DNA from: Candidatus Eisenbacteria bacterium
GTDB lineage: Bacteria; Eisenbacteria; RBG-16-71-46; JAFGJU01
DNA length: 18,726 nucleotides
NCBI GenBank assembly: GCA_026388185.1
Contig: JAPLKG010000019.1
Span: forward strand, 1 to 18,726
Reading direction: 5' to 3'
Shown here piece after piece: positions 3,513 through 18,654 of the stretch. The position numbers and the translations under genes are program-made. The number at the start of each line of letters is the position of its first letter. Within the stretch, counting starts at the first letter, position 1. Under the pieces are notes generated by a model. That model saw only the letters and a list, made by a program, of their open reading frames with translations. It was not told the DNA's origin and ran no database searches.

Positions 3513-3582
3513 CAGCCTGCGGAATCCTATGGAGAGTCCACACGACCTCACTGAATCCGCGCGCAGAAAGGAGGTGAACATT

Positions 3583-4095
3583 ATGCTGGGAACGAGAAGT
3601 CAGATTTCGACACTGCTAGTCACGATGTGCCTCTGTGCCGGTCTCATCTGCACAAACTCGGAAGCGCAGGTGCCAAGTACGAGAGCGGTTGTTGAGTACA
3701 TGGGTCATGTTCAAGGGGTTGGTGACGTATCGTGGGTGACGCAACCAGGGACCTGTGGAACTGTCGGGCAGGGCAAGCGTCTCGAAGGATTTGCCATCCG
3801 CCATACTGTGTGGTCAAAGGACCAGGTGGGCCTGCGCTACAAGGCGCATCTCCAGGACCTGAGTGATACTAGCTGGTTCTATATGCCCGACTATTGCGGT
3901 ACGAGAGGTGAGAAGAGGCGGATGGAGGCAATCTGGATAGAGGTAATTGAGAAACCAGATAGGTACTCCGTATACTATCGCGCTCATCTTGCGGGTACCG
4001 GCTGGACGGTGTGGTATAGAGACGGAGACATGTGTGGGACGCGAGGTAAGCAGCGTCAGATCGAGGCCATTGAAGTGATGATCGTTGATAGATAG
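3583..4095 (+). CDS. Small secreted protein made of three ChW repeats
   Basis: The start at 3583 follows a near-perfect AAAGGAGGTGA (3567-3577); the longer upstream reading is discarded. The 170-residue product has a signal peptide (MLGTRSQIS, core LLVTMCLCAGLI, cut near EAQ at residue 29). Three repeats follow, at about 36-74, 83-121 and 128-167. Each has the ChW plan: V.Y..H, then a D/TGW-like tryptophan, then GT.G...R.EA and a hydrophobic strand. ChW repeats were described in clostridial extracellular proteins and are thought to bind partners or cell-surface material. Each repeat here carries CGT where the usual form has a non-Cys residue before GT (Cys58, 105, 151). It has no catalytic domain, so it is likely a binding protein. 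It ends 31 bp before the IS481 element. Confidence 0.75.
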   Translation: MLGTRSQISTLLVTMCLCAGLICTNSEAQVPSTRAVVEYMGHVQGVGDVSWVTQPGTCGTVGQGKRLEGFAIRHTVWSKDQVGLRYKAHLQDLSDTSWFYMPDYCGTRGEKRRMEAIWIEVIEKPDRYSVYYRAHLAGTGWTVWYRDGDMCGTRGKQRQIEAIEVMIVDR

Positions 4096-5380: not shown

Positions 5381-5432
5381 CAACATGTCACCCATGTACC
5401 CGGACTAAAGTGTTACCTATGTGTCTGGACCG
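5381..5432. repeat. IS481 right terminal inverted repeat (double motif)
   Basis: Read on the minus strand, the outer unit is CGGTCCAGACACATAGGTAA (from 5432) and the inner unit AGTCCGGGTACATGGGTGAC (from 5406). They match the left-end units in the same order. The terminase frame continues directly past 5432. Confidence 0.7.
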
Positions 5433-6597
5433 TACCCTCATAGCTTCAAACACGCAGCTCCAGTCAGAGGTGTTCTTGCGAGAGATCAAGTTCCACCTGG
5501 AGCACAATCCGCTCCTGACCTACTACTTTGGCCGCTTCTTCAGCCCTGAGAAATGGGATGTGCGAGAGATTGTTGTTGCGCCGAGGACATCATCAGCCAA
5601 GGAGAGCAGGGTCACCTGCGTTGGAGTGGGCGGCCCTGTTGCCAGCAGGCACTATGACATCATCATCGCTGATGACCTTGTAGATGAAGAGAACTCAAGG
5701 ACCGAGGTACAGAGAGAAAAGACAAGGGTGTGGTTCTATAAGACCTTGCAGCCCTGCCTCGAGCCAGACGGGAAGCTATTCATCGTAGGGACCAGGTATC
5801 ACTACCTTGACCTCTACGGCCATCTCATCAAGAACGAGTTCAGAGATAGGCACCAGATTGACTCTGACGGCACTACCCCATGGCCGGAGAAGTTCTCGCT
5901 CGAGTGGCTGGAGGAGAGACGGAAGCAGGTGGGGTCGGTGATTTTCAACGCTCAGTATCAGAATGATACCGAGCTGATGAAGGGGCACATCTTCAAGGAA
6001 GAGTGGTTCAGGTTCTACGAGGTTGAGCCGGACTGGAGCAAGATGGATTTCTTCATAGGGTGCGACCCTGCGGCTACGAGCAGAGAAGCACTCCTTCAGG
6101 GCAAGAAGGCGGAGACTGACTGGTGGACCATAGTGGTTGGAGCAAGGAAGAAGGAGTCTCAAGGAGAGTGGGGAGCAGAGGTTTATCTCAAAGAGCTATG
6201 GAGAGCTCGCTGCACCAAGCAGGAGTACCTGGATGCGCTCAAAGGGTTCAATGAGCGATACCATCCTTTGAGAGTCGTTATAGAGACGGTGGCGGCGCAG
6301 GAGTACTTAGCCCAGGATGCAGAGAGGTGGATGCCGGTCGAGAGGCTAAAGAGGACGACTGACAAGGTTGCGAGGTCATACTGGCTACAGCCCTTCTTTG
6401 AGAACGGGCAGATTCTGATGCCGGCGAAGCATACGGTGAGTGATTACACACTCTGGCAGGCGTTGGTGGATGAGCTGGTGCTGTTCCCGCAGGGGGAGCA
6501 TGATGACCTTTTTGATGGGCTGCAAACAATGGTCGAGGGAGCGACGACCGGCCCAACAGTGAGAGCCTACCAGTACTCGCCGTTTCCGCGGTTCTAG
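5410..6597 (+). pseudogene. Phage terminase large subunit, N-terminus missing (IS-truncated)
   Basis: Terminase large subunits package phage DNA: an N-terminal ATPase drives translocation and a C-terminal RNase-H-like nuclease cuts the concatemer. The native frame is open from the IS481 edge (5433); the GTG at 5410 and ATG at 5419 lie inside the IS. Counting from 5410, visible parts are the acidic ATPase motif YDIIIADDLVDEE (82-94), the coupling motif VGTRYHYLDL (126-135) and nuclease residues D219 (GCDPAA), E292 (VVIETVAAQ) and D365/D366/D369 (HDDLFDG). The Walker A region, roughly the first 130-150 residues of a usual protein, is absent. No portal, capsid, small terminase or tail gene lies nearby, so this is an orphan prophage relic. 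Confidence 0.85.
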
Positions 6598-6651: not shown

Positions 6652-6937
6652 ATGCTTGCATCAGGCGAATGCAGCTGAAGGCGTAGCCCTTGAGATCATG
6701 CTCCAAGCGGCAGGAGAGTGTACTGATCCAGAGTGGTTTGCGGCAATTGGCTTGGATTCCAAAGTCGTTCCCCACAGGTGTTGATCGACGGTGAAGACTA
6801 CTTGGATATTCTCTCTGAAACGGGACGAAAGAGGACCCCAAAGGGCGTGTTCTCCAGTGCATGGAGCGGGGGATCTCAGAGAAGAAGATGACTGAAGAAT
6901 TCTCAGTGTCACAAAGGCTACAGCAAGGAGATTGACG
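6652..6937 (+). other. Leader or gene-free stretch ahead of the channel fusion
   Basis: No recognisable gene is present. Two short plus-strand frames exist, one reading ALEIMLQAAGECTDPEWFAA and another LIDGEDYLDILSETGRKR. Neither has a good start site, and each ends within 50 codons. They may be relics of a small gene that once followed this promoter. The strong promoter upstream makes this stretch the likely 5' leader of the 6938 gene. Confidence 0.4.
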
Positions 6938-9175
6938 ATGCGGGTGTCTCGCTCACGATTAGCAGTCAACTGCCTCGTTGCGTTTCTATTTCTTGTAATC
7001 GGCTCGAGCCCCGTCTTTTCCCAAAATCAGTTAGTCCTAGCGACTGGTGGGAAGGAAGGGACATATTTCGCTCTAGGCGAAGGAATCAAACGAGTTCTTG
7101 AACGCGAAATACCCAATTTGGATGTTGTCGTAGTTCAAACAGAAGGGTCCGTCCAAAATGCCGAGCTGATGACCGCCGGTGCCGCGCAGCTAGCTCTTAT
7201 GCAGAATGACGTGGCGTACAATTTCTATAAGGGCGAGAGGATATTCAAATTTCCCTCAGATAAGGTCAAGGGACTGGCTGCCTTGTATACAGAGATCATC
7301 CAGATAGTATGCAGGAAGGAATTGGGCATTACCAGACTATCAGATCTGAGAGGCAAGACGATTGCCGTCGGACCGCGAGGTAGCGGTACCGAGTTCAACG
7401 CCGCCGCAATTCTAGACGCCGTTGGAATAAGATACGAAGACATAGAGGAAAGGTTTATCTCCTTCGAAGAGGCGAAATACTCCATCTTGGCAGGGACAAT
7501 TGATGCCGCATTCATAACAGCAGGAATTCCAACCGCTGCCGTGCGAGACATGGCTCATTCCATCGTGTTCATTCCTATCGACATAGGCACCATCGATAAG
7601 ATCCGGCGTGCATATCCGTATTTCGTGTCGGCGAGCATTCCTGCTACCTCGTATCCAAGCCAGAATAAGGAAATTCCTAGTGTTGGCGTGAGAGCGTTAC
7701 TGGTCGCAAGCGCGAATCTCAAGCCTAGGCTTGCTAAGCAAATAACGGCCGCAATCTTCAAGAGAGTCGATATGTTAGCGGAGGCCCATCCGGTCGCATC
7801 CGAAGTAAAACTAAGGGATGCACGGTGGGGAATGCCTATTCCGCTGCACCGGGGGGCTCAAGACTACTACGAAGGTCAAGGCCTAGCTGAACGTGATTTC
7901 TCTGTCTATTTGAGGCCTTTCTTTCTTCCACTTCTTGTCTGCCTCGTGGTTGTGATTGTCTTGATCAAGTACAGGCAGGACCTGAGAACGATCCTGACTA
8001 GGCGTGTTTTCATAAGGCTTCTCCTGGTGTTTATCATTATGTATGTGTTGGCAACGATCGGCATTCACTTATTTGAAAGAGAGGTGAATCAAAGCTTTAG
8101 GACACTCTATGAGTCCTTCTGGTCGACAATGGTATTTGTTCTGAGTGGCCTTGATCTGGGTATCCCTGTAACAAAGTGGGGACGACTGTTTTCTGCACTA
8201 ATACTTATCTCAAGTATGGGGATATTCGGCATGATCGTCGCACAGGTTGGGAGCATTCTCGCCAGAAAGGGGGAGGTAAAAATGTCCGGAAACATAAGCG
8301 GCCATATAGTGATATGTAATTGGAATGAGAAAGGGGAAAGAGTAGTTCATGAGTTACATTCCACAGATGGAAAGTCTGAAATACCCATAATTGTGATCAC
8401 GAAGAATAGACCCAGTAATGAGCAGGACGATTTGAGAACCAACTATCCTGAAGAGTACAGCAATGTGGAGTTCAGAGAGAGCGATCCGTCTCTGGAGCAA
8501 GTTCTTGAAGCCGCAAATGCGCATCGCGCAAAAAGCGTAATCATCTTGGCCGACGAAAAGAGCTCCGATCCTGATGCAGCTTCTGCCCTTATTGCACTTT
8601 CTGTCAAGCATCTATGGGGAGAACGAGTGCCAAAAGAGAGACGCAGCGATGCCAAGGGTCAGTTGGATGTAATGGACAAACAGGAAGACTCACAAGAAAG
8701 TGAGGAGAAGAGCAAATCTAGGAAACCCCACATCGTGGCCGAAGCAGTGAATCATCGCAGGATGGAAAGTCTGAAGAATGCTGGTGTAGACGAGGTGATC
8801 TGTGCATCAGACTTCGGGATAGGAATTCTGGCACAATGCGCACTATATCGAAAGCTCTCAGAATGCTATCAACAGCTCCTTTGTTATTCAGACGAAACAT
8901 GTGAACTTTACCTCGTTGACGATCCGAACGTCAGCAACTCATTGGATGGCAAAACGTTTCAGGAGGCCGCTCACCACTTCATCGAAAATAGGAACCCGGA
9001 CAATCCAACGATACTAATCGGTTTCAGGCGGGGTGACAAGATTGTTTTGAACCCGAGGGAGAGTGGAACTGAGAAGGAGTACTTACGATTTCGCAGAGAG
9101 GACTGCCCGATATTCCTCTCATATAGGTGTCCAAAGCCAGACGACATGCATCTTGGCATTGGGTCAAGAAGTTGA
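6938..9175 (+). CDS. TAXI-type ligand-binding domain fused to membrane channel and TrkA-N/RCK region
   Basis: The start at ATG 6938 follows AAGGAG at 6925-6930. The 745-residue product has these parts in order. A signal peptide covers 1-28. A TAXI-family (TRAP-associated extracytoplasmic) solute-binding domain covers about 31-310, with TGGKEGTYFALGEGI at 36-50, QTEGSVQNAEL near 67-77 and VGPRGSGTE at 144-152. Hydrophobic segments lie at about 327-345 and 357-377, a re-entrant pore-like stretch at 391-412 and another membrane segment at 415-441. A cytoplasmic TrkA-N/RCK-like Rossmann region starts at HIVICNWNEKGE (456-467), has a charged linker (about 565-595) and a second Rossmann-like part with AEAVNHRRMESLKNAGVDEV. 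The pore reads LSGLDLGIPVT instead of TVGYGD, so potassium selectivity is not supported. The plan fits a ligand-gated channel: binding domain outside, pore in the membrane, nucleotide-sensing ring inside. Ligand and ion are unknown. Confidence 0.85.
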   Translation: MRVSRSRLAVNCLVAFLFLVIGSSPVFSQNQLVLATGGKEGTYFALGEGIKRVLEREIPNLDVVVVQTEGSVQNAELMTAGAAQLALMQNDVAYNFYKGERIFKFPSDKVKGLAALYTEIIQIVCRKELGITRLSDLRGKTIAVGPRGSGTEFNAAAILDAVGIRYEDIEERFISFEEAKYSILAGTIDAAFITAGIPTAAVRDMAHSIVFIPIDIGTIDKIRRAYPYFVSASIPATSYPSQNKEIPSVGVRALLVASANLKPRLAKQITAAIFKRVDMLAEAHPVASEVKLRDARWGMPIPLHRGAQDYYEGQGLAERDFSVYLRPFFLPLLVCLVVVIVLIKYRQDLRTILTRRVFIRLLLVFIIMYVLATIGIHLFEREVNQSFRTLYESFWSTMVFVLSGLDLGIPVTKWGRLFSALILISSMGIFGMIVAQVGSILARKGEVKMSGNISGHIVICNWNEKGERVVHELHSTDGKSEIPIIVITKNRPSNEQDDLRTNYPEEYSNVEFRESDPSLEQVLEAANAHRAKSVIILADEKSSDPDAASALIALSVKHLWGERVPKERRSDAKGQLDVMDKQEDSQESEEKSKSRKPHIVAEAVNHRRMESLKNAGVDEVICASDFGIGILAQCALYRKLSECYQQLLCYSDETCELYLVDDPNVSNSLDGKTFQEAAHHFIENRNPDNPTILIGFRRGDKIVLNPRESGTEKEYLRFRREDCPIFLSYRCPKPDDMHLGIGSRS

Positions 9176-9602: not shown

Positions 9603-9646
9603 ACCGGCGACTTCGTGGCCACGCGGAAGATGGTACTGCTCCACTA
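9603..9646 (+). repeat. Dispersed repeat C, second copy, left part (split by IS110)
   Basis: This encodes TGDFVATRKMVLLH and reaches a stop at the edge of the IS110 element. It is almost identical in DNA to 2133-2173. The rest of the repeat resumes at 11096. In the restored sequence the stop would be TAA as in the other copy; the insertion changes it to TAG. Confidence 0.75.
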
Positions 9647-9865: not shown

Positions 9866-10972
9866 TCAGTTAGTCTGAGGCGCTGCTTTCATAATGGCCC
9901 ACACGAAGCCGCAGAGTTCACGAGCTACTGCTGTGATGGCGACGTGCAGGTGTTTTTTGTGGCTTAGATAGTAGAACCTCCTTGATAGACGATGTTGGGC
10001 TTTTAGGGCTATTGCCACGATTTCAGGTGATTGTCCCTGCCTGCGTCTGTTGAGGATGAGGTCGGCACCTGCGTTATGTCTGTTATTCCAGGCTGCTTCT
10101 ATGAGTATGCGTCTTGCGTATCCGTTGCCGGCCTTGGTGATGGGGCCCTTTCGCTCTCGGTCTCCAGAGGAGTGCTCACTGGGGACGAGACCGAAGTATG
10201 CCATTAGAGCCCTTGGGGAGCGGAAGCGATGGATGTCGTCTATCTCGGAGAGCAGCGTCATCGCAGTTAAGATCTTTACTCCTCTGAGGCAGCAGAGGGC
10301 ATTTACGTATTTGTTGTACGGCGGTTGCTGAGAGAACATGTCAATGTCTCGGTCGAGGGCGTTGCGTTGCATTTCCAGGTACTCGAAGTGTTCGAGTTCA
10401 GCGGTGAGGGCTGTCTTGAGAGGGCCTTCGAGTCGATGCCGTAGTTCAGTGAGCCAGAGCTTGTGCTTCTTGGTCCAGAGTGATTTGCCATCCCTGTAGA
10501 TGAGCCCTTGGGCTAGGAGGATAGAGCAGATACGTCGTTTTGTGGACTTGCATTGTTCCTGATAGCTGTAGCGTAGCCTGATGAGCTGACGCACAGCCTC
10601 GTGGTCCTCCGCTGGCACGTGGATCGGGGTGAGGTGACCGTTTCGATAGAGTTTAGCCAGCATTACTGCGTCGAGTCTGTCTGTTTTCCTATGGTCACCT
10701 AGTTTGCGTGGAATGAGTGAGGGCGCGATGATGTCGCAGTGGAAGCCGTCTCGCTTGAGCACTCTGTGGAGGACGTAGCCTGCACAAGAAGCTTCGTAGC
10801 AGGCCCTGACCGGAGCTTTCTCCGACAAGCGACGGAAGAGACGTCTCACCTTCATGAGATCGCCTGACATCTTGACGACCTGGGTATCGTTGCTGTCGTC
10901 CTCAAGGACGGCGGCTGTGATAGAATCCATGTGGACATCGAGACCTACCCATATATACTTGGACTCAGACAT
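9866..10972 (-). CDS. IS110-family DEDD transposase (recombinase)
   Basis: The 368-residue protein starts at ATG 10972 with GGAAAGGAG upstream (10980-10988). The RuvC-like N-terminus has the DEDD residues D12 (VGLDVHMD), E60 (CYEASCAGY), D98 and D101 (KTDRLDA). The C-terminal Tnp domain carries GLVPSEHSSGDRERKGPITK with the serine pair at 268-269 that is catalytic in this family, followed by GNGYARRILIEAAW. Everything expected is present, so the enzyme is probably active. It works with a guide RNA made by the element. Confidence 0.95.
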   Translation of the reverse strand: MSESKYIWVGLDVHMDSITAAVLEDDSNDTQVVKMSGDLMKVRRLFRRLSEKAPVRACYEASCAGYVLHRVLKRDGFHCDIIAPSLIPRKLGDHRKTDRLDAVMLAKLYRNGHLTPIHVPAEDHEAVRQLIRLRYSYQEQCKSTKRRICSILLAQGLIYRDGKSLWTKKHKLWLTELRHRLEGPLKTALTAELEHFEYLEMQRNALDRDIDMFSQQPPYNKYVNALCCLRGVKILTAMTLLSEIDDIHRFRSPRALMAYFGLVPSEHSSGDRERKGPITKAGNGYARRILIEAAWNNRHNAGADLILNRRRQGQSPEIVAIALKAQHRLSRRFYYLSHKKHLHVAITAVARELCGFVWAIMKAAPQTN

Positions 10973-11095: not shown

Positions 11096-11155
11096 CTAAC
11101 GGCTTGCCTCGCAGCTGTGAACGCGGTGCACAGTGGAGGGAACGGAGTTCACACC
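11096..11155 (+). repeat. Dispersed repeat C, second copy, right part
   Basis: CTAACGGCTTGCC, CGCAGCTGTGAACGCGGTGC and CACAGTGGAGGGAAC match 2172-2220. The flanking TGTGAAC (11116-11122) and GTTCACA (11147-11153) form a perfect 7-bp inverted repeat, better preserved than in the first copy. Confidence 0.75.
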
Positions 11156-11286: not shown

Positions 11287-11367
11287 GAAAGGGCCGGTCA
11301 GGGTGACATACTACATAGTTCTGTATAATACATGTTGGGCCGGCGACGGGAGTTGAACGGAGAGAGC

Positions 11368-12219
11368 ATGCCAGTCGAAGCGGGCGAGATCCCCCAGGTG
11401 TTCCTTTCCTATGCTGCCCAGGATCGAGCGTTCGCGCAACGTCTCTCGCACGATCTGCGTTCCATCGGTTTCTCCGTCTGGCGCGACGAGGACGCCATCG
11501 AATCCGGAGCGGAATGGACCTCCTCCGTCCTCGATGCTCTGCTCCGTGCGTGTGCGCTGATCCTCGTTGGTACCCGCGCAGCGGCCGACTCAGCGTTTGT
11601 GCGGAAGGACGTGCTCACGTTCGTACAACAGAAGCGGGGGCCCGTGATACCGCTGCTGCTTGAGGACGTCGAACCAACGCGCTCGCTGCAGGTTGCAGTA
11701 GCTCCATTTCCAACTGTTGATTTCCGCTCGTCCTACGACAGCGGACTGCAGGCGCTGATTCAGGCCCTGCCGACGGTCGCACGACAAGGTACCGGAGGAG
11801 CATGGCCTGGTGGAGCCTCGAGGCCAGCCACAAGAGGATATGCATTCATCAGCTACGCAGAAGAGGATCTTGATTTCGTGGTCGGCCTAACCGGTTTCAT
11901 GGGCAACCGAGGCTACGCCTACTGGGATTACGAAAAGAGCGACCGCAACTACCACACTCAGTTGTATCTTGAGATCGAGGAGGCTATCACGCGTGCGCGG
12001 GCGGCCCTCTGTGTCCTGTCGCCTGCGTGGAGGGGTTCACTCTGGACGGTCAAGGAGTACCTGTACGCAGAGGAGGTCGGTACCCCAACATTCCTGCTCA
12101 GAGCCAAGGCGATTCCGCCAACCCTTGTGATTGCCGGTGCGCACTATATTGATTTCGTTTCGGACGCATCCAAGGGCTATGCCCGACTAGAGCGAGAGCT
12201 AGGGCGGAAGGGGCTGTAA
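11368..12219 (+). CDS. Double TIR-domain protein
   Basis: The ATG at 11368 is preferred because GGAGAG (11359-11364) lies just upstream; ATG 11332 has none. The 283-residue protein has two TIR domains joined by a Gly/Pro-rich linker (about 136-156). TIR1 (10-120) opens with VFLSYAAQDRAFAQRL and has FSVWRDED. At the place of the usual catalytic glutamate it has D81 (FVRKDVLTF). TIR2 (158-265) opens AFISYAEEDLDFV, has GYAYWDYEKSD and keeps a glutamate at E230 (LWTVKEYLYAEE). Bacterial TIRs often cleave or modify NAD+ in anti-phage defence, or act as adaptors. Only the second domain looks potentially catalytic. No sensor domain is fused; the STAND protein 2 kb downstream is a conceivable partner. 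Confidence 0.85.
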   Translation: MPVEAGEIPQVFLSYAAQDRAFAQRLSHDLRSIGFSVWRDEDAIESGAEWTSSVLDALLRACALILVGTRAAADSAFVRKDVLTFVQQKRGPVIPLLLEDVEPTRSLQVAVAPFPTVDFRSSYDSGLQALIQALPTVARQGTGGAWPGGASRPATRGYAFISYAEEDLDFVVGLTGFMGNRGYAYWDYEKSDRNYHTQLYLEIEEAITRARAALCVLSPAWRGSLWTVKEYLYAEEVGTPTFLLRAKAIPPTLVIAGAHYIDFVSDASKGYARLERELGRKGL

Positions 12220-12643
12220 GAGGCTCAGAGTGACATTCCCCTAGATTCTGGTCCAGTTCTGGAGGTAGTTTCTGGGCCAGGGAGGTACTTGGTATGGCTC
12301 GGAGACGGTAGCAGATCGTAGCGATTCTTGGAGAGGCCGAGCGCTGGCCCTCTTGCTTTGCTGGTTGCGGCAGCCCGCCACAATCGATTCTGCCACTGAA
12401 AAAGGCCACCTACGTGTGCACTTTGCGAGCTATCTCACTTCGGGGGTACATCCGACTAGGGTCCCCTGAATTCACGCAGCAAACCGCGCCTTTTCCCGTC
12501 GTTTTCTGCCCTGCTTTCCCGCTGAAAGAATCTTCGCCTGAGCCTCACAATTAGCTTGCTATCTCTTGCCACCAGAGGGTTCATGTACTTGGCGGTCGAC
12601 GTAATCGCTTGACTGAAAAGCTGTTAGAAGGGAGGTGAGAAGC
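12220..12643 (+). other. Gene-free stretch with repeat B
   Basis: No intact gene is seen. From 12293 an MARRR start followed by a TAG and then QIVAILGEAERWPSCFAGCG reads faintly like the degenerate beginning of an insertion-sequence accessory protein, but I cannot identify it. Repeat B occupies 12382-12496. The 3' end supplies the promoter and leader of the gene at 12644; I saw no clear -10/-35 pair. Confidence 0.4.
12382..12496 (+). repeat. Dispersed repeat B, copy 2
   Basis: This shares with 2290-2406 the core TACATCYGACTAGGGTCCCC, then TGAATT, CACGCAGCAA, CCGCGCC and TTTTCC, with single-base gaps that rule out a conserved reading frame. Different genes follow: a promoter block in copy 1, the repeat A gene in copy 2. 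Confidence 0.65.
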
Positions 12644-13171
12644 ATGGCAAAGAAGGCGAAGAAAGGCAACGGCAAGGCCAAAGTGGCGGCGAAACCTGAG
12701 CCAAAGCCCAAGACAAAACCCAAAGGCGAGGCTCCCGATCTCGACGCCCTGCGCAAGCCGGTACTCGATGCCAACGCTGGCCTGACGAAGGCTGAAACCG
12801 AGGCGAAGGCGCTCTTGGACAAGGCACAAGTCCTCGTTGCAACGGCTAGAAGTCAGTACCGCGAGGCAGCAGCGCTCTACCGGCAAGCCTGCAGCAAGGC
12901 CGGGGTAGAGTGCGAGTTTGAAGGCGGACGCTCTGAGAACGTGAGCCCGAAGGTAAGCTTCATCGTCGAGAAGGCGGACAAGGGCATCCGCGTGATGGTG
13001 AAGGGCAAGCCGGAGAGCGAGGAGCTGATCCCGCTGGCAGCGCTCAAGCCGAGCATCGGCAAAGCGGCCTACGCCTACACCGACAAGCACGTAGGGCCGC
13101 GAGAGCGAGTCGGAAATAAGGGAGGCACGCTCGGCAACAGGCTGAGAGCTGTGATGGTGGGGAAGAAATAG
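12644..13171 (+). CDS. Repeat A gene, full-length copy: Lys/Ala-rich tail, coiled coil, conserved basic C-terminus
   Basis: ATG 12644 follows GGAGGTGA (12631-12638). The 175-residue protein has a histone-like N-terminal tail (1-30, MAKKAKKGNGKAK then repeated KPK). A helical, probably coiled-coil stretch covers about 32-85 (LDALRKPVLDANAGLTKAE and onward). The C-terminus (about 103-175) is compact and basic, with KVSFIVEKADKGIRVMVKGK and AAYAYTDKHVGPRERVGNKG. Copies of that C-terminus recur at both window ends. I do not recognise a named family. The basic tail suggests nucleic-acid binding, and the conserved end may bind a partner; both are inference. The downstream 100 bp is conserved with copy 1, so gene and flank appear to have spread together. 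Confidence 0.8.
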   Translation: MAKKAKKGNGKAKVAAKPEPKPKTKPKGEAPDLDALRKPVLDANAGLTKAETEAKALLDKAQVLVATARSQYREAAALYRQACSKAGVECEFEGGRSENVSPKVSFIVEKADKGIRVMVKGKPESEELIPLAALKPSIGKAAYAYTDKHVGPRERVGNKGGTLGNRLRAVMVGKK

Positions 13172-13270
13172 CATCAAGCTGAGTGAGGACCGTCTGTGAT
13201 AGGCGGCCTTGCTCTTTCCTGTTCTGTGCGCATTCAGGGATTGACAGGCAAGCGAGTCACAGCTATGCTC
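12956..13270 (+). repeat. Dispersed repeat A, copy 2
   Basis: This starts at AAGCTTCATCGT, identical to the window's first bases, and ends at AGCTATGCTC. It is highly similar to 1-327 through the coding end and about 100 bp of 3' flank. The first 300 bp of the complete gene have no counterpart in the window because copy 1 is cut by the window edge. Confidence 0.75.
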
Positions 13271-14395: not shown

Positions 14396-17300
14396 ATGAA
14401 CAATACAACCCCATCGTCTGATAACCGCCGCATCCGCATCTTCGTCTCCTCCACCTTCCGCGACATGGTGGAGGATCGCAATTCGTTAATGACGCATGCT
14501 TGGCCAGAACTGCGGCGGTTCTGCCGGGAGCGCCGACTGGAACTGGTCGAGGTGGACTTGCGCTGGGGTATTTCCGAGGAGCAAAGCACACGCAAGGAAA
14601 CCCTCAAGCTCTGCCTTGACGAAATCCGCGCCTGCCGTCCCTACTTCATCGGCCTGCTGGGCGAACGGTACGGCTGGGTACCGGACGACGAAGCCTTCAC
14701 CGCCGACCTGCTGGAAGAACAGCCTTGGCTGGTGAACCTTCGCGGGCGAAGCGTTACCGAACTGGAGATTATCCATGGTGTTCTGCGCGAAGAACAGATG
14801 CATGGACGTGCTTTTTTCTATTTCCGCGATCCGGCATATCTGCGTTCTGTTCCGGAGCCGAACCGGGAAGATTTCACCACAGAGGACGCCGAGAGCACCG
14901 AGAAGCTCGAAAGACTGAAGCAGCAGATCCGAGCGGCCCGAGACGAGAACGTCTGTCACCTGCGCGAGAACTATCCGAACCCGCGTCGGCTTGCCGAATC
15001 GGTTCTTGAAGACCTGAGAACCGTCATTGACGCTCAGTTCCCCATCGAGAGCATCCCCGACGTAATTACCCGCGCAGCCCGCGACCAAGAGGCTTTTGCC
15101 GAAACCCGCCGTCGCACCTACATCGGTCGGCTCGATTACTTCGTGGCGCTCGACCGCCACGCAGCGAGCGATGACGGCCCGCTGGTGCTGCTCGGCGACT
15201 CCGGAAGTGGGAAGTCTTCCCTGTTGGCCAACTGGATTGACCGGTGGCGCAAGACGCATCCGCGTGATTTCATCTTCCAGCACTACATCGGCGGCACGCC
15301 CATGAGGGCCGATCACTGGGCACTTATGTTCCGCCTGGTCGCCGAAATCAAACGGTGGACCGGGGATTCCGAAGACCTACCCCGCACGGGTGAAGACATT
15401 CTCAAGGTCTTCGACTCTTGGCTGGTCAAGCTGCGAAACAAAGCGGAGCGTGCCAGCCTCCGAGCTATTGTCGTTCTCGACGCCCTCAATCAACTCGAAG
15501 ACGACGACCACGCTCGCCTGCTGAGTTGGCTTCCGTCGCATCCGTTCACCGGCCCCCTCCGGCTGGTCGTTTCCACTCTGCCTGTCGAACCTCCCAGGGA
15601 TGACCCGAAAGCGGTGGTGGACGATCCGCTGAAGGTCGTGCAAGAGCGCGGATGGATCTCGCTGTGCGTCCAACCGCTCACGCCCGACGAGCGCTGCCGG
15701 ATGGTTGCCGACTACCTTAAACGTTTCGGCAAGAAGCTTGACACACCCAGCCTTGAGCGGATTGCCGCCGCGCCCGCCACCGCCAATCCCCTCTACCTAA
15801 AAATCCTCCTTGACGAACTGCGCGTGACCGGCACGCACGACCGCTTGGACGAACGACTTGGTGGGTATCTGGCCATGAAGGATATCCCATCGCTATTGGA
15901 TGCCATCTTCGCTCGCTATGAGCGCGACTACGAACTTGACCGGTCGGGTCTCGTGCGCGAAGCGCTCGCCCTCATCTGGGCCGCGCGGTGTGGTCTCACG
16001 GAAGCGGAATTGCTCTTCATTCTGCGGCCAATGGACAGACCGCAATTGCCGGTAGCCTCCTGGACACCTCTGAGATCGGCGCTAGAAGAATCGCTCGTGG
16101 ACCGTGCTGGTGTCCTGAACTTCGCCCACGACTTCTTTCGCGTCGCCGTCGCCCGCCGCTATGTCGCAGGTGAAATAGGTGCGAAAGCGTTGCGCCTTCG
16201 GATGGGCGACGCCTTGGCCTTGTTGCCCACGGATGCGCGTCAAGCCGACGAACTCCCATGGTTGCTGCGGCAAGTCGAAGCGCGTGGGTCACTCCGTGCC
16301 TGTCTCCTCGATATAGACCGTTTCCTCTTCATCATGGCGCGCGACCAGAACGAGTTACTCCGCTATTGGGTGTGGCTAGGTGAGGAGAAGATGATGGGGA
16401 AAGCTTATCTGAAGAACTTTGAGAGATGGGCGCGAGCACCGGGCAGGCAAGCCGAAGACATCGCGGATGCTGCCAATACTCTGGCTTTTTTTCTTTTTTC
16501 CCAAGCCTCTCTCCACGCTGAGGCGGAACCGCTCTTTCGGCGGGCGCAGGCCACTTACGAGCAGTCATTCGGCCTGAATCATCCCCATGTGGCCACCGCC
16601 CTCAACAACTTGGCACTCCTCTTACTGGACAGCAACCGGTTGGCGGAAGCCGAGTCGCTGTTGCGGCGGGCGCTAGCTATCGACGAGCAAAGCTATGGAG
16701 TCGGCGACCCGACGGTAGCAACGCCTCTCATCAATCTGGCAGCCCTGTTGAAGAAAACTAACCGACTTGCGGAAGCCGAACCGTTACTCCGACGGGCGCT
16801 GAGCATTTTGGAGCGAGCCTTTGGCGAGAATCATCCCCAGGTTGCCATGGGCCTTGGCACTTTGTCGAGCCTTCTGCAGGCCTCCAACCGGATCAGGGAG
16901 GCCGAGTTGACGGATCGGCGCGTGCTGGAGATTATGGAGAGGAACTTCGGAGAGACCCACCCCAACGTCGCCGTCGCCGTTGGTAACTTGGGTTGGCTGT
17001 TGAAGGAAACTGAACGTCCGGAGGAGGCCGAACCGCTGCTTCGACGGGCTCTGGCCATTGCGGAAACTAGTTATGGGGCCAATCATCCGAGAGTCGCAGT
17101 TTGCCTAAACAACTTGGCGCAGCTTTTACACGACACCAGGCGGCTCGGAGAAGCGGAGCCGTTGATGCGGCGGGCGCTCGCAATTGACGAGCAGAGCTAT
17201 GGGACTAACCATCCGAGAATCGCCGTGCGCCTGAACAATCTCTCGCTGTTACTGAAGGACATGAATCGGTTGGAGGAGGCCGAGCGGTTGATGCAACGGG

Positions 17301-17602
17301 CGAACGCGATTGAGGAGTTAGATTTTGGCCGTGACGATCCCGATGTTGCAAACGAACTGAATGACATCGCACGGTCATTGCTGTCCACTGAGCAGCGGGA
17401 GGTGACCGAGCCGTGGATGCGGCGCATGGTCGGGATCCTCCTGAGTTCAACGAGACGCACGGGCACCCCCCACCCGCGCCTGAACGATGCGATCAATGGA
17501 TACGCTCAGTTGCTGAGGCAGATGGGCCTCTCCCAAGCCCAGATCGTCGCCAAGCTCAAGGAACTCTGCCACGAGTATGGCCTCCCATTGGGTGGAGAGT
17601 GA
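14396..17602 (+). CDS. DUF4062-STAND (NACHT-like) ATPase-TPR protein, NPHP3/TEP1-like architecture
   Basis: The 1068-residue protein has an N-terminal DUF4062 domain (13-100) with IFVSSTFRDMVEDRN, VDLRWGISEEQ and IGLLGERYGWVP. A helical linker leads to a NACHT/STAND ATPase with Walker A GDSGSGKSS (267-275) and Walker B-like IVVLDALNQLED (358-369). A winged-helix-like part (about 515-600) includes GLTEAELLFILRP and NFAHDFFRVAVARRYV. The C-terminus (about 690-1045) is a run of kinesin-light-chain-like TPRs of 42 residues, each with NHP.VA..LNNLA.LL and EAE.L.RRALAI. The order matches animal NPHP3/TEP1-type and many bacterial NLR-like proteins. STAND proteins oligomerise when their repeats sense a ligand. 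Here DUF4062, distantly TIR-like, may signal. The ribosome site is weak, and the start is supported by the domain beginning at residue 13. Confidence 0.88.
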   Translation: MNNTTPSSDNRRIRIFVSSTFRDMVEDRNSLMTHAWPELRRFCRERRLELVEVDLRWGISEEQSTRKETLKLCLDEIRACRPYFIGLLGERYGWVPDDEAFTADLLEEQPWLVNLRGRSVTELEIIHGVLREEQMHGRAFFYFRDPAYLRSVPEPNREDFTTEDAESTEKLERLKQQIRAARDENVCHLRENYPNPRRLAESVLEDLRTVIDAQFPIESIPDVITRAARDQEAFAETRRRTYIGRLDYFVALDRHAASDDGPLVLLGDSGSGKSSLLANWIDRWRKTHPRDFIFQHYIGGTPMRADHWALMFRLVAEIKRWTGDSEDLPRTGEDILKVFDSWLVKLRNKAERASLRAIVVLDALNQLEDDDHARLLSWLPSHPFTGPLRLVVSTLPVEPPRDDPKAVVDDPLKVVQERGWISLCVQPLTPDERCRMVADYLKRFGKKLDTPSLERIAAAPATANPLYLKILLDELRVTGTHDRLDERLGGYLAMKDIPSLLDAIFARYERDYELDRSGLVREALALIWAARCGLTEAELLFILRPMDRPQLPVASWTPLRSALEESLVDRAGVLNFAHDFFRVAVARRYVAGEIGAKALRLRMGDALALLPTDARQADELPWLLRQVEARGSLRACLLDIDRFLFIMARDQNELLRYWVWLGEEKMMGKAYLKNFERWARAPGRQAEDIADAANTLAFFLFSQASLHAEAEPLFRRAQATYEQSFGLNHPHVATALNNLALLLLDSNRLAEAESLLRRALAIDEQSYGVGDPTVATPLINLAALLKKTNRLAEAEPLLRRALSILERAFGENHPQVAMGLGTLSSLLQASNRIREAELTDRRVLEIMERNFGETHPNVAVAVGNLGWLLKETERPEEAEPLLRRALAIAETSYGANHPRVAVCLNNLAQLLHDTRRLGEAEPLMRRALAIDEQSYGTNHPRIAVRLNNLSLLLKDMNRLEEAERLMQRANAIEELDFGRDDPDVANELNDIARSLLSTEQREVTEPWMRRMVGILLSSTRRTGTPHPRLNDAINGYAQLLRQMGLSQAQIVAKLKELCHEYGLPLGGE

Positions 17603-18516: not shown

Positions 18517-18654
18517 TTGATCAGAAAGCCGAAGGCGGCCTACCCCTACACCGACAAGCACGTAGGGCCGAGGGAACGTGTGGGGAACAAGGGAGGTACG
18601 CTCGGTAACAGGCTGAGAGCTGTGATGGCGGGGAAGTGGCCACGAGCTGAGTAA
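18517..18654 (+). pseudogene. Repeat A gene, copy 3: broken C-terminal fragment
   Basis: From 18532 to the TAA at 18652-18654 the frame encodes KAAYPYTDKHVGPRERVGNK and GGTLGNRLRAVMAGK, then a shifted end WPRAE. The upstream part of the protein is absent; only a TTG at 18517 could start it. It lies 13 bp after the previous gene's stop. Most codons match copy 2, so it was separated recently or is still selected. After the stop the DNA (GTAAGGGCGG...) only weakly follows the flank of the other copies. The last 72 bases of the window hold nothing I can name. Confidence 0.65.

Follow-up and report, generated by a model that had tools for sequence, protein, structure and literature searches.

A recurrent bacterial fusion of a TAXI binding domain, a two-helix pore, and an RCK domain, most probably an amino-acid-gated cation channel

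Can a periplasmic binding domain of the TAXI family serve as the outer sensor of an ion channel? The question was raised by a preliminary description, made from the letters alone, of an 18,726-nucleotide contig of a Candidatus Eisenbacteria bacterium (JAPLKG010000019.1 of assembly GCA_026388185.1; the whole stretch analyzed, hereafter the window). It pointed to a gene that seemed to encode a signal peptide, a TAXI domain, three membrane segments with a re-entrant pore, and an RCK region in one chain. We found this layout confirmed by a single unbroken open reading frame of 745 codons (ATG at 6938, TGA at 9173-9175), by profile matches, and by a structure model, and its features are collected in Table 1. 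Hydropathy of the 745-aa protein shows a signal peptide and three membrane segments. The N-terminal part matches NMT1_3 with 226 bits against a cutoff of 27 bits (residues 34 to 315) and the TAXI profile TIGR02122 with 279 bits against a cutoff of 84, the TAXI-family match spanning residues 14 to 315. The RCK families match from residue 453, with TrkA_N (36.6 bits) and Slo-like_RCK (34.2 bits) both above cutoff. Among the Pfam and NCBIfam profiles run on this protein, Ion_trans (20.7 bits) and Castor_Poll_mid (22.6 bits) stayed below their own cutoffs. When the protein was compared with the PDB by phmmer, TAXI proteins were closest overall (E value of 2e-46), and the membrane part together with the RCK domain was closest to MthK (E value of 1.5e-11, best stretch 344 to 539).

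Table 1. Features of the TAXI-pore-RCK gene, in window positions
Feature	Position	Strand	Remark or basis
Whole gene: TAXI domain, TM-A, TM1, pore loop, TM2, RCK	6938..9175	+	745 aa, stop included
AAGGAG, likely Shine-Dalgarno site for the full-length start, ATG 6938	6925..6930	+	sequence
Signal peptide, residues 1-28	6938..7021	+	hydrophobic helix 4-21, then SSPVFSQ
TAXI periplasmic binding domain, residues 28-318; glutamate-pocket residues Y43, S71, Q89, E119	7019..7891	+	
TM-A, residues 319-344; chain passes from outside to inside	7892..7969	+	hydropathy, model
TM1 (S5-like) helix, residues 357-380	8006..8077	+	hydropathy, model
Pore helix and filter loop, residues 390-412	8105..8173	+	model
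Filter SGLDLG, residues 403-408, in the position of TVGYGD	8144..8161	+	alignment
TM2 (S6-like) helix, residues 413-444	8174..8269	+	hydropathy, model
Internal Shine-Dalgarno GGGGGAGGT (8269-8277) and in-frame ATG 8282-8284 (Met449)	8269..8284	+	predicted start of a free 297-aa RCK subunit
RCK domain, residues 453-730	8294..9127	+	profile matches, MthK alignment, fold comparison
Charged RCK insert, residues 566-596	8633..8725	+	absent from all other fused members; low model confidence

AlphaFold2, given 36 alignment rows, modeled the full protein with a mean pLDDT of 85, although the relative placement of the domains is uncertain (pTM of 0.54). The clamshell, TM-A, TM1, and TM2 have the limits given in Table 1; a short helix (346 to 355) lies between TM-A and TM1, a pore helix (390 to 403) is followed by the filter loop, and the RCK fold begins at residue 457. 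The model thus places a pore helix and a filter loop between the last two helices, where the preliminary description had advised looking for a pore, and it agrees with an RCK-regulated P-loop channel in having two pore helices, a re-entrant loop, and an RCK domain after the inner helix. Against the PDB, the clamshell matched glutamate-bound TAXI proteins (Z of 37.5, 2.3 to 2.4 Å, 290 residues), and the RCK part matched the gating ring of CASTOR best (6o7a; Z of 20.4, 5.2 Å, 232 residues), followed by GsuK and MthK. The pore modeled alone (pLDDT of 88) matched KcsA (Z of 10.9, 2.5 Å, 92 residues) as well as SK and cyclic-nucleotide-type pores, KcsA-type pores giving Z of about 10 to 11. Because Foldseek E values for this short helical unit are weak (best 0.004) and a Z near 10 can be reached by helical bundles through arrangement alone, the pore assignment rests on the sequence match to MthK.

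A profile scan over a collection of 84,980 species yielded 59 loci, 15 of which have a TAXI domain ahead of pore and RCK, in the same order and frame. Nine are Planctomycetota of the Phycisphaerae/Sedimentisphaerales kind, three of them cut by contig ends; the others come from Uabimicrobium amorphum (complete genome), two Myxococcota, one Aminicenantes, and two unclassified bacteria (one cut). NMT1_3, Slo-like_RCK, and TrkA_N were matched in all 16 fused proteins, the window's included. Comparison of Planctomycetota pairs shows purifying selection on every module, with dN/dS of 0.05 to 0.14 in each of the TAXI, pore, and RCK parts; these figures come from the pairs in which dS could be estimated, dS being largely saturated in more distant pairs. 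Among 150 genomes of the class of locus L078, a long frame with an E value below 1e-30 occurred solely in L078's own genome, next to one weaker match of 536 aa elsewhere in the sample, so the fused family appears rare and patchy. Viral contigs, scanned with the single sequence and with the alignment, gave no relative, and a plasmid collection gave only weak generic channels.

The reading that we favor, with a probability of roughly 0.6, is that the gene encodes a subunit of a tetrameric cation channel that a glutamate-like ligand opens from the outer side, with an RCK ring as its modulator on the inner side. Outside the cytoplasmic membrane, the exported clamshell would close around an amino or dicarboxylic acid resembling glutamate, and closure would pull TM-A and then, via the short linker, TM1, so that the K+-channel-like two-helix pore opens. 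The tetramer would place four acidic residues in the filter (D406 in the window protein, E in most relatives) and so form a cation pore that is not K+ selective and is probably Ca2+ permeable. Four tethered RCK domains and four free ones made from the internal start at Met449 would form an octameric ring, which may set the open probability through an inner ligand, Ca2+ being a candidate.

The outer ligand is suggested by the binding pocket. VcGluP contacts glutamate through residues that include Y45, S75, Q93, and E125 (PMC11574862), which align to the four pocket residues of the window protein. Every one of the 15 fused proteins in which the site is covered has Y43 and Q89, and all 16 have E119. 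Stand-alone TAXI proteins from other genomes vary at the aligned positions, where 7 of 14 have the Y, 4 of 15 the Q, and 4 of 14 the E; since the nine Planctomycetota members are close relatives, about six independent lineages stand behind this conservation. The Y and Q are the two decisive glutamate-binding residues in VcGluP and BP0403, in the latter case as established by mutation (PMC12344293). As the ligands of other TAXI proteins include 2-oxoglutarate (PMC12344293), we call the ligand glutamate-like. The earlier idea of a small acid as the outside ligand is strengthened by these invariant residues; that such an acid gates the pore, and that the pore conducts, is what we infer.

It may be asked whether the channel is instead gated solely from inside by the RCK ring, with the TAXI domain acting as a sensor or docking site for MscS or other envelope partners. 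Many close channel-RCK relatives exist without a TAXI domain, and an MscS gene adjoins three Planctomycetota copies. At two of them (L058 and L060) it has the same orientation and ends about 20 nt before the channel gene, and at the third (L055) it lies adjacent on the opposite strand, which hints at an osmotic role. However, the ligand pocket varies less among fused proteins than among free TAXI proteins, and the model has a single short helix joining clamshell to pore, which would be a natural mechanical coupling. We regard gating from inside only as unlikely.

A second alternative is uptake: the TAXI domain would capture a small acid and pass it to the pore, making the protein a facilitator that conducts its own ligand. 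TAXI domains are transport proteins, and the lack of a nearby TRAP membrane subunit, noted at the outset, holds genome-wide. DctM (PF06808) is absent from the window's genome (97.86% complete), while 7 of 14 control genomes were positive, so the DctM-type membrane subunit that defines a TRAP transporter is missing; nor does this genome encode a second TAXI protein. In the case of the fused TAXI-GltS transporter and BP0403, a TAXI glutamate domain is likewise joined to a non-TRAP membrane protein without a TRAP subunit, and the key Y and Q residues are shared with the window protein (PMC12344293). The partner in TAXI-GltS, however, is a Na+/glutamate symporter, supposedly of the elevator type, rather than an ion-channel pore, and has no RCK domain. 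A two-helix P-loop pore with acidic filter residues would be ill suited to anionic ligands, and RCK rings are typical of cation channels and cation transport, which makes a facilitator quite improbable.

The filter itself departs from that of all K+ channels. SGLDLGIPVT aligns where K+ channels have VGYGDxxPxT, and the TVGYG signature is found neither here nor in relatives, which have SGFED, TGYED, or AGYED. A G-[FYL]-[E/D] filter with an acidic residue is present in 14 of the 16 fused proteins, as SGFED in Planctomycetota, AGYED in Uabimicrobium, and TG[FY]ED in Myxococcota; the pattern is broken in two relatives (L095 and L104). Most relatives have two acidic residues (GFED), while the window filter, GLDL, has one, D406. 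The preliminary description had suggested that SGLDLG might confer a new ion preference. That this is not a K+ filter stands, and a new preference is plausible, yet the window protein shares SGLD with stand-alone cousins from WOR-3, Cloacimonadota, Aminicenantes, and others, which carry SGLDSGxPxT.

We also considered a receptor whose pore has lost conduction along with TVGYG and which signals through its RCK domain. This appears very unlikely, because the pore region is under purifying selection with the pore helix, a conserved Gly, and the acidic residue kept, and because a natural counterexample exists. The plant Ca2+ channels CASTOR, POLLUX, and DMI1 also lack TVGYG, have an acidic filter residue and an RCK ring, and CASTOR is Ca2+ selective and loses its current when the acidic residue, D265, is neutralized (PMC6697748). 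These channels differ from the window protein in their tandem RCK domains (a single one here), four TM segments, AD(S/A)GNHA filter, and lack of a binding-protein domain, and the window protein is thus not a CASTOR/POLLUX member. Since an acidic non-TVGYG filter with an RCK ring conducts Ca2+ in CASTOR, our best guess for the fused channel is a divalent-permeable or nonselective cation pore.

The cytoplasmic part was first described as a Rossmann/TrkA-N region. It is a Rossmann-type RCK with TrkA_N above cutoff, but the GxGxxG nucleotide motif of KTN/TrkA domains is missing: the stretch reads CNWNEKGERV, and CNW is invariant in all 36 aligned sequences. A nucleotide as the inside ligand, part of the original interpretation, therefore lacks support, and the nearest RCK folds, those of CASTOR and MthK, are both Ca2+ regulated. 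The Ca2+ ligands of MthK are D184, E210, and E212, which align to L537, E602, and V604, so that one of the three is kept.

Predicted internal translation starts point to a possible ring of mixed composition. Met449 follows GGGGGAGGT and lies seven codons ahead of the first conserved His of the RCK domain; its Shine-Dalgarno pairing energy of -12.6 kcal/mol beats that of all 12 other internal Met codons of the gene. Family-wide, 43% of RCK-proximal Met codons reach -9 kcal/mol or better, versus 1.2% of other internal ones, an enrichment (P of about 2e-11, 20 representatives) that conserved linker codons could explain in part. In MthK, four free RCK domains are produced from a comparable internal start, Met107 (PMC9440719), and the window gene has a predicted counterpart in the same place just before the RCK domain. 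L098 and L104 have a separate RCK gene just downstream (297 and 303 aa), likely encoding second ring subunits; as each also has the internal Shine-Dalgarno site, the internal start is perhaps redundant there. Given the predicted internal start, the MthK precedent, and these separate genes, a mixed 4+4 RCK ring would be the natural inference. Separate RCK genes directly 3' of channel-RCK genes were seen at L098:1955-2848, L104:6237-7148, L063:6025-6852, and L108:4956-5810.

MthK shares the two-helix pore and single RCK domain with the window protein but lacks the extracellular binding domain and TM-A, has a canonical K+ filter, and relies on Ca2+ ligands of which two-thirds are not conserved here. 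Cyanobacterial two-helix channel-RCK proteins (about 355 to 390 aa) are about 34% identical over pore and RCK and have the CNWN motif, but are without TAXI and TM-A and have a GEYPDKP filter. Cyanobacterial (and Lentisphaerota) two-helix RCK channels with this filter and no K+ signature, at L003, L032-L045, and L068-L088, are apparently undescribed. Bacterial tandem-RCK channels of BK-like order were also found (L100, L102, and L107), with BK_channel_a matches in L102 and L107.

To our knowledge, the known tetrameric glutamate-gated channels are all of the iGluR lineage, with a split clamshell. GluR0 and other prokaryotic glutamate receptor channels couple an outer clamshell amino-acid domain to a P-loop pore, but their clamshell is split by the pore, and RCK domains are unmentioned in the text of a survey of them (PMC2950845). 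In contrast, the TAXI-type clamshell of the window protein is contiguous and wholly N-terminal, with no S1/S2 division around the pore, and an RCK domain follows the pore. PMC full-text searches returned no report of a TAXI or binding-protein fusion to an RCK domain or ion channel.

Phylogenetic analysis of the channel part requires two or three label changes for the fused proteins. Relatives without TAXI lie between the fused clades, so the pore can do without the TAXI domain. The tree of TAXI domains joins the window's domain to the fused domains of Planctomycetota rather than to free TAXI proteins (support of 94/94, just under threshold), so the window and Planctomycetota genes probably go back to one fusion. 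The low GC content of the gene (0.482, versus 0.564 ± 0.020 for pieces of the genome, which the contig otherwise resembles) and its absence from both family relatives compared suggest horizontal gain. The contig being rich in insertion sequences and the gene low in GC, the window copy may have arrived recently and may be silent. The IS-rich 18.7-kb contig and the missing orthologue in the two relatives could also be read as an assembly or frame error fusing a TAXI gene to a channel gene, for which 7910-7930 had been named as the place to look, but the same in-frame fusion in 15 proteins from independent assemblies, one in a complete genome (L093), together with purifying selection, refutes this, and we give it practically no weight.

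An operon with the window neighbors was considered and rejected, these being a phage terminase fragment, transposases, and unrelated genes. Directly upstream (5410-6597, + strand), the terminase large-subunit fragment (phrog_38, 261 bits, C-terminal half of the profile only) marks a prophage remnant. An integron cassette array, suspected from repeats in the window, was also rejected, as a search for attC-like pairs came back empty. One repeat, about 100 nt long, runs unbroken through 2133-2232, and its second copy is split (9603-9646 and 11096-11154) around an IS110-type transposase gene (9866-10972), as if an insertion had interrupted it. Diverged copies (86 to 90%) of part of a small gene at 12635-13171 lie at 1-264, 12955-13218, and 18532-18636, two of them near the contig ends. 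Other genes, all on the + strand, encode an exported protein with three ChW (clostridial hydrophobic W) repeats (3580-4095), in a genome that does not look clostridial; a protein with two TIR domains (11332-12219) that partially matches TIR effectors in PADLOC defense models; and a 1,068-aa DUF4062, STAND-type NTPase, and TPR protein (14396-17602) with a nephrocystin-3-like domain order.

Taken as a whole, the original interpretation is partly supported. The architecture is real, recurrent, and, as far as the literature searched shows, undescribed, and it most probably works as an amino-acid-gated, RCK-controlled cation channel. More tentatively, at somewhat less than even odds, we propose a separate class of bacterial ligand-gated channels that would combine a TAXI clamshell with an acidic pore like that of CASTOR and a mixed RCK ring in the manner of MthK. 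Such channels would answer glutamate outside the cell with a Ca2+ or mixed-cation signal and would receive a second input on the cytoplasmic side. The NCBI rule TIGR02122 labels such proteins "TAXI family TRAP transporter solute-binding subunit," a name under which fused channels would go unnoticed. If the proposal is true, these proteins would be an independent solution to glutamate-gated channels, built from other parts and with outside and inside sensors on one pore; they would give TAXI proteins, so far defined as transport subunits, a role in signaling and would offer a bacterial model for CASTOR-like pores.
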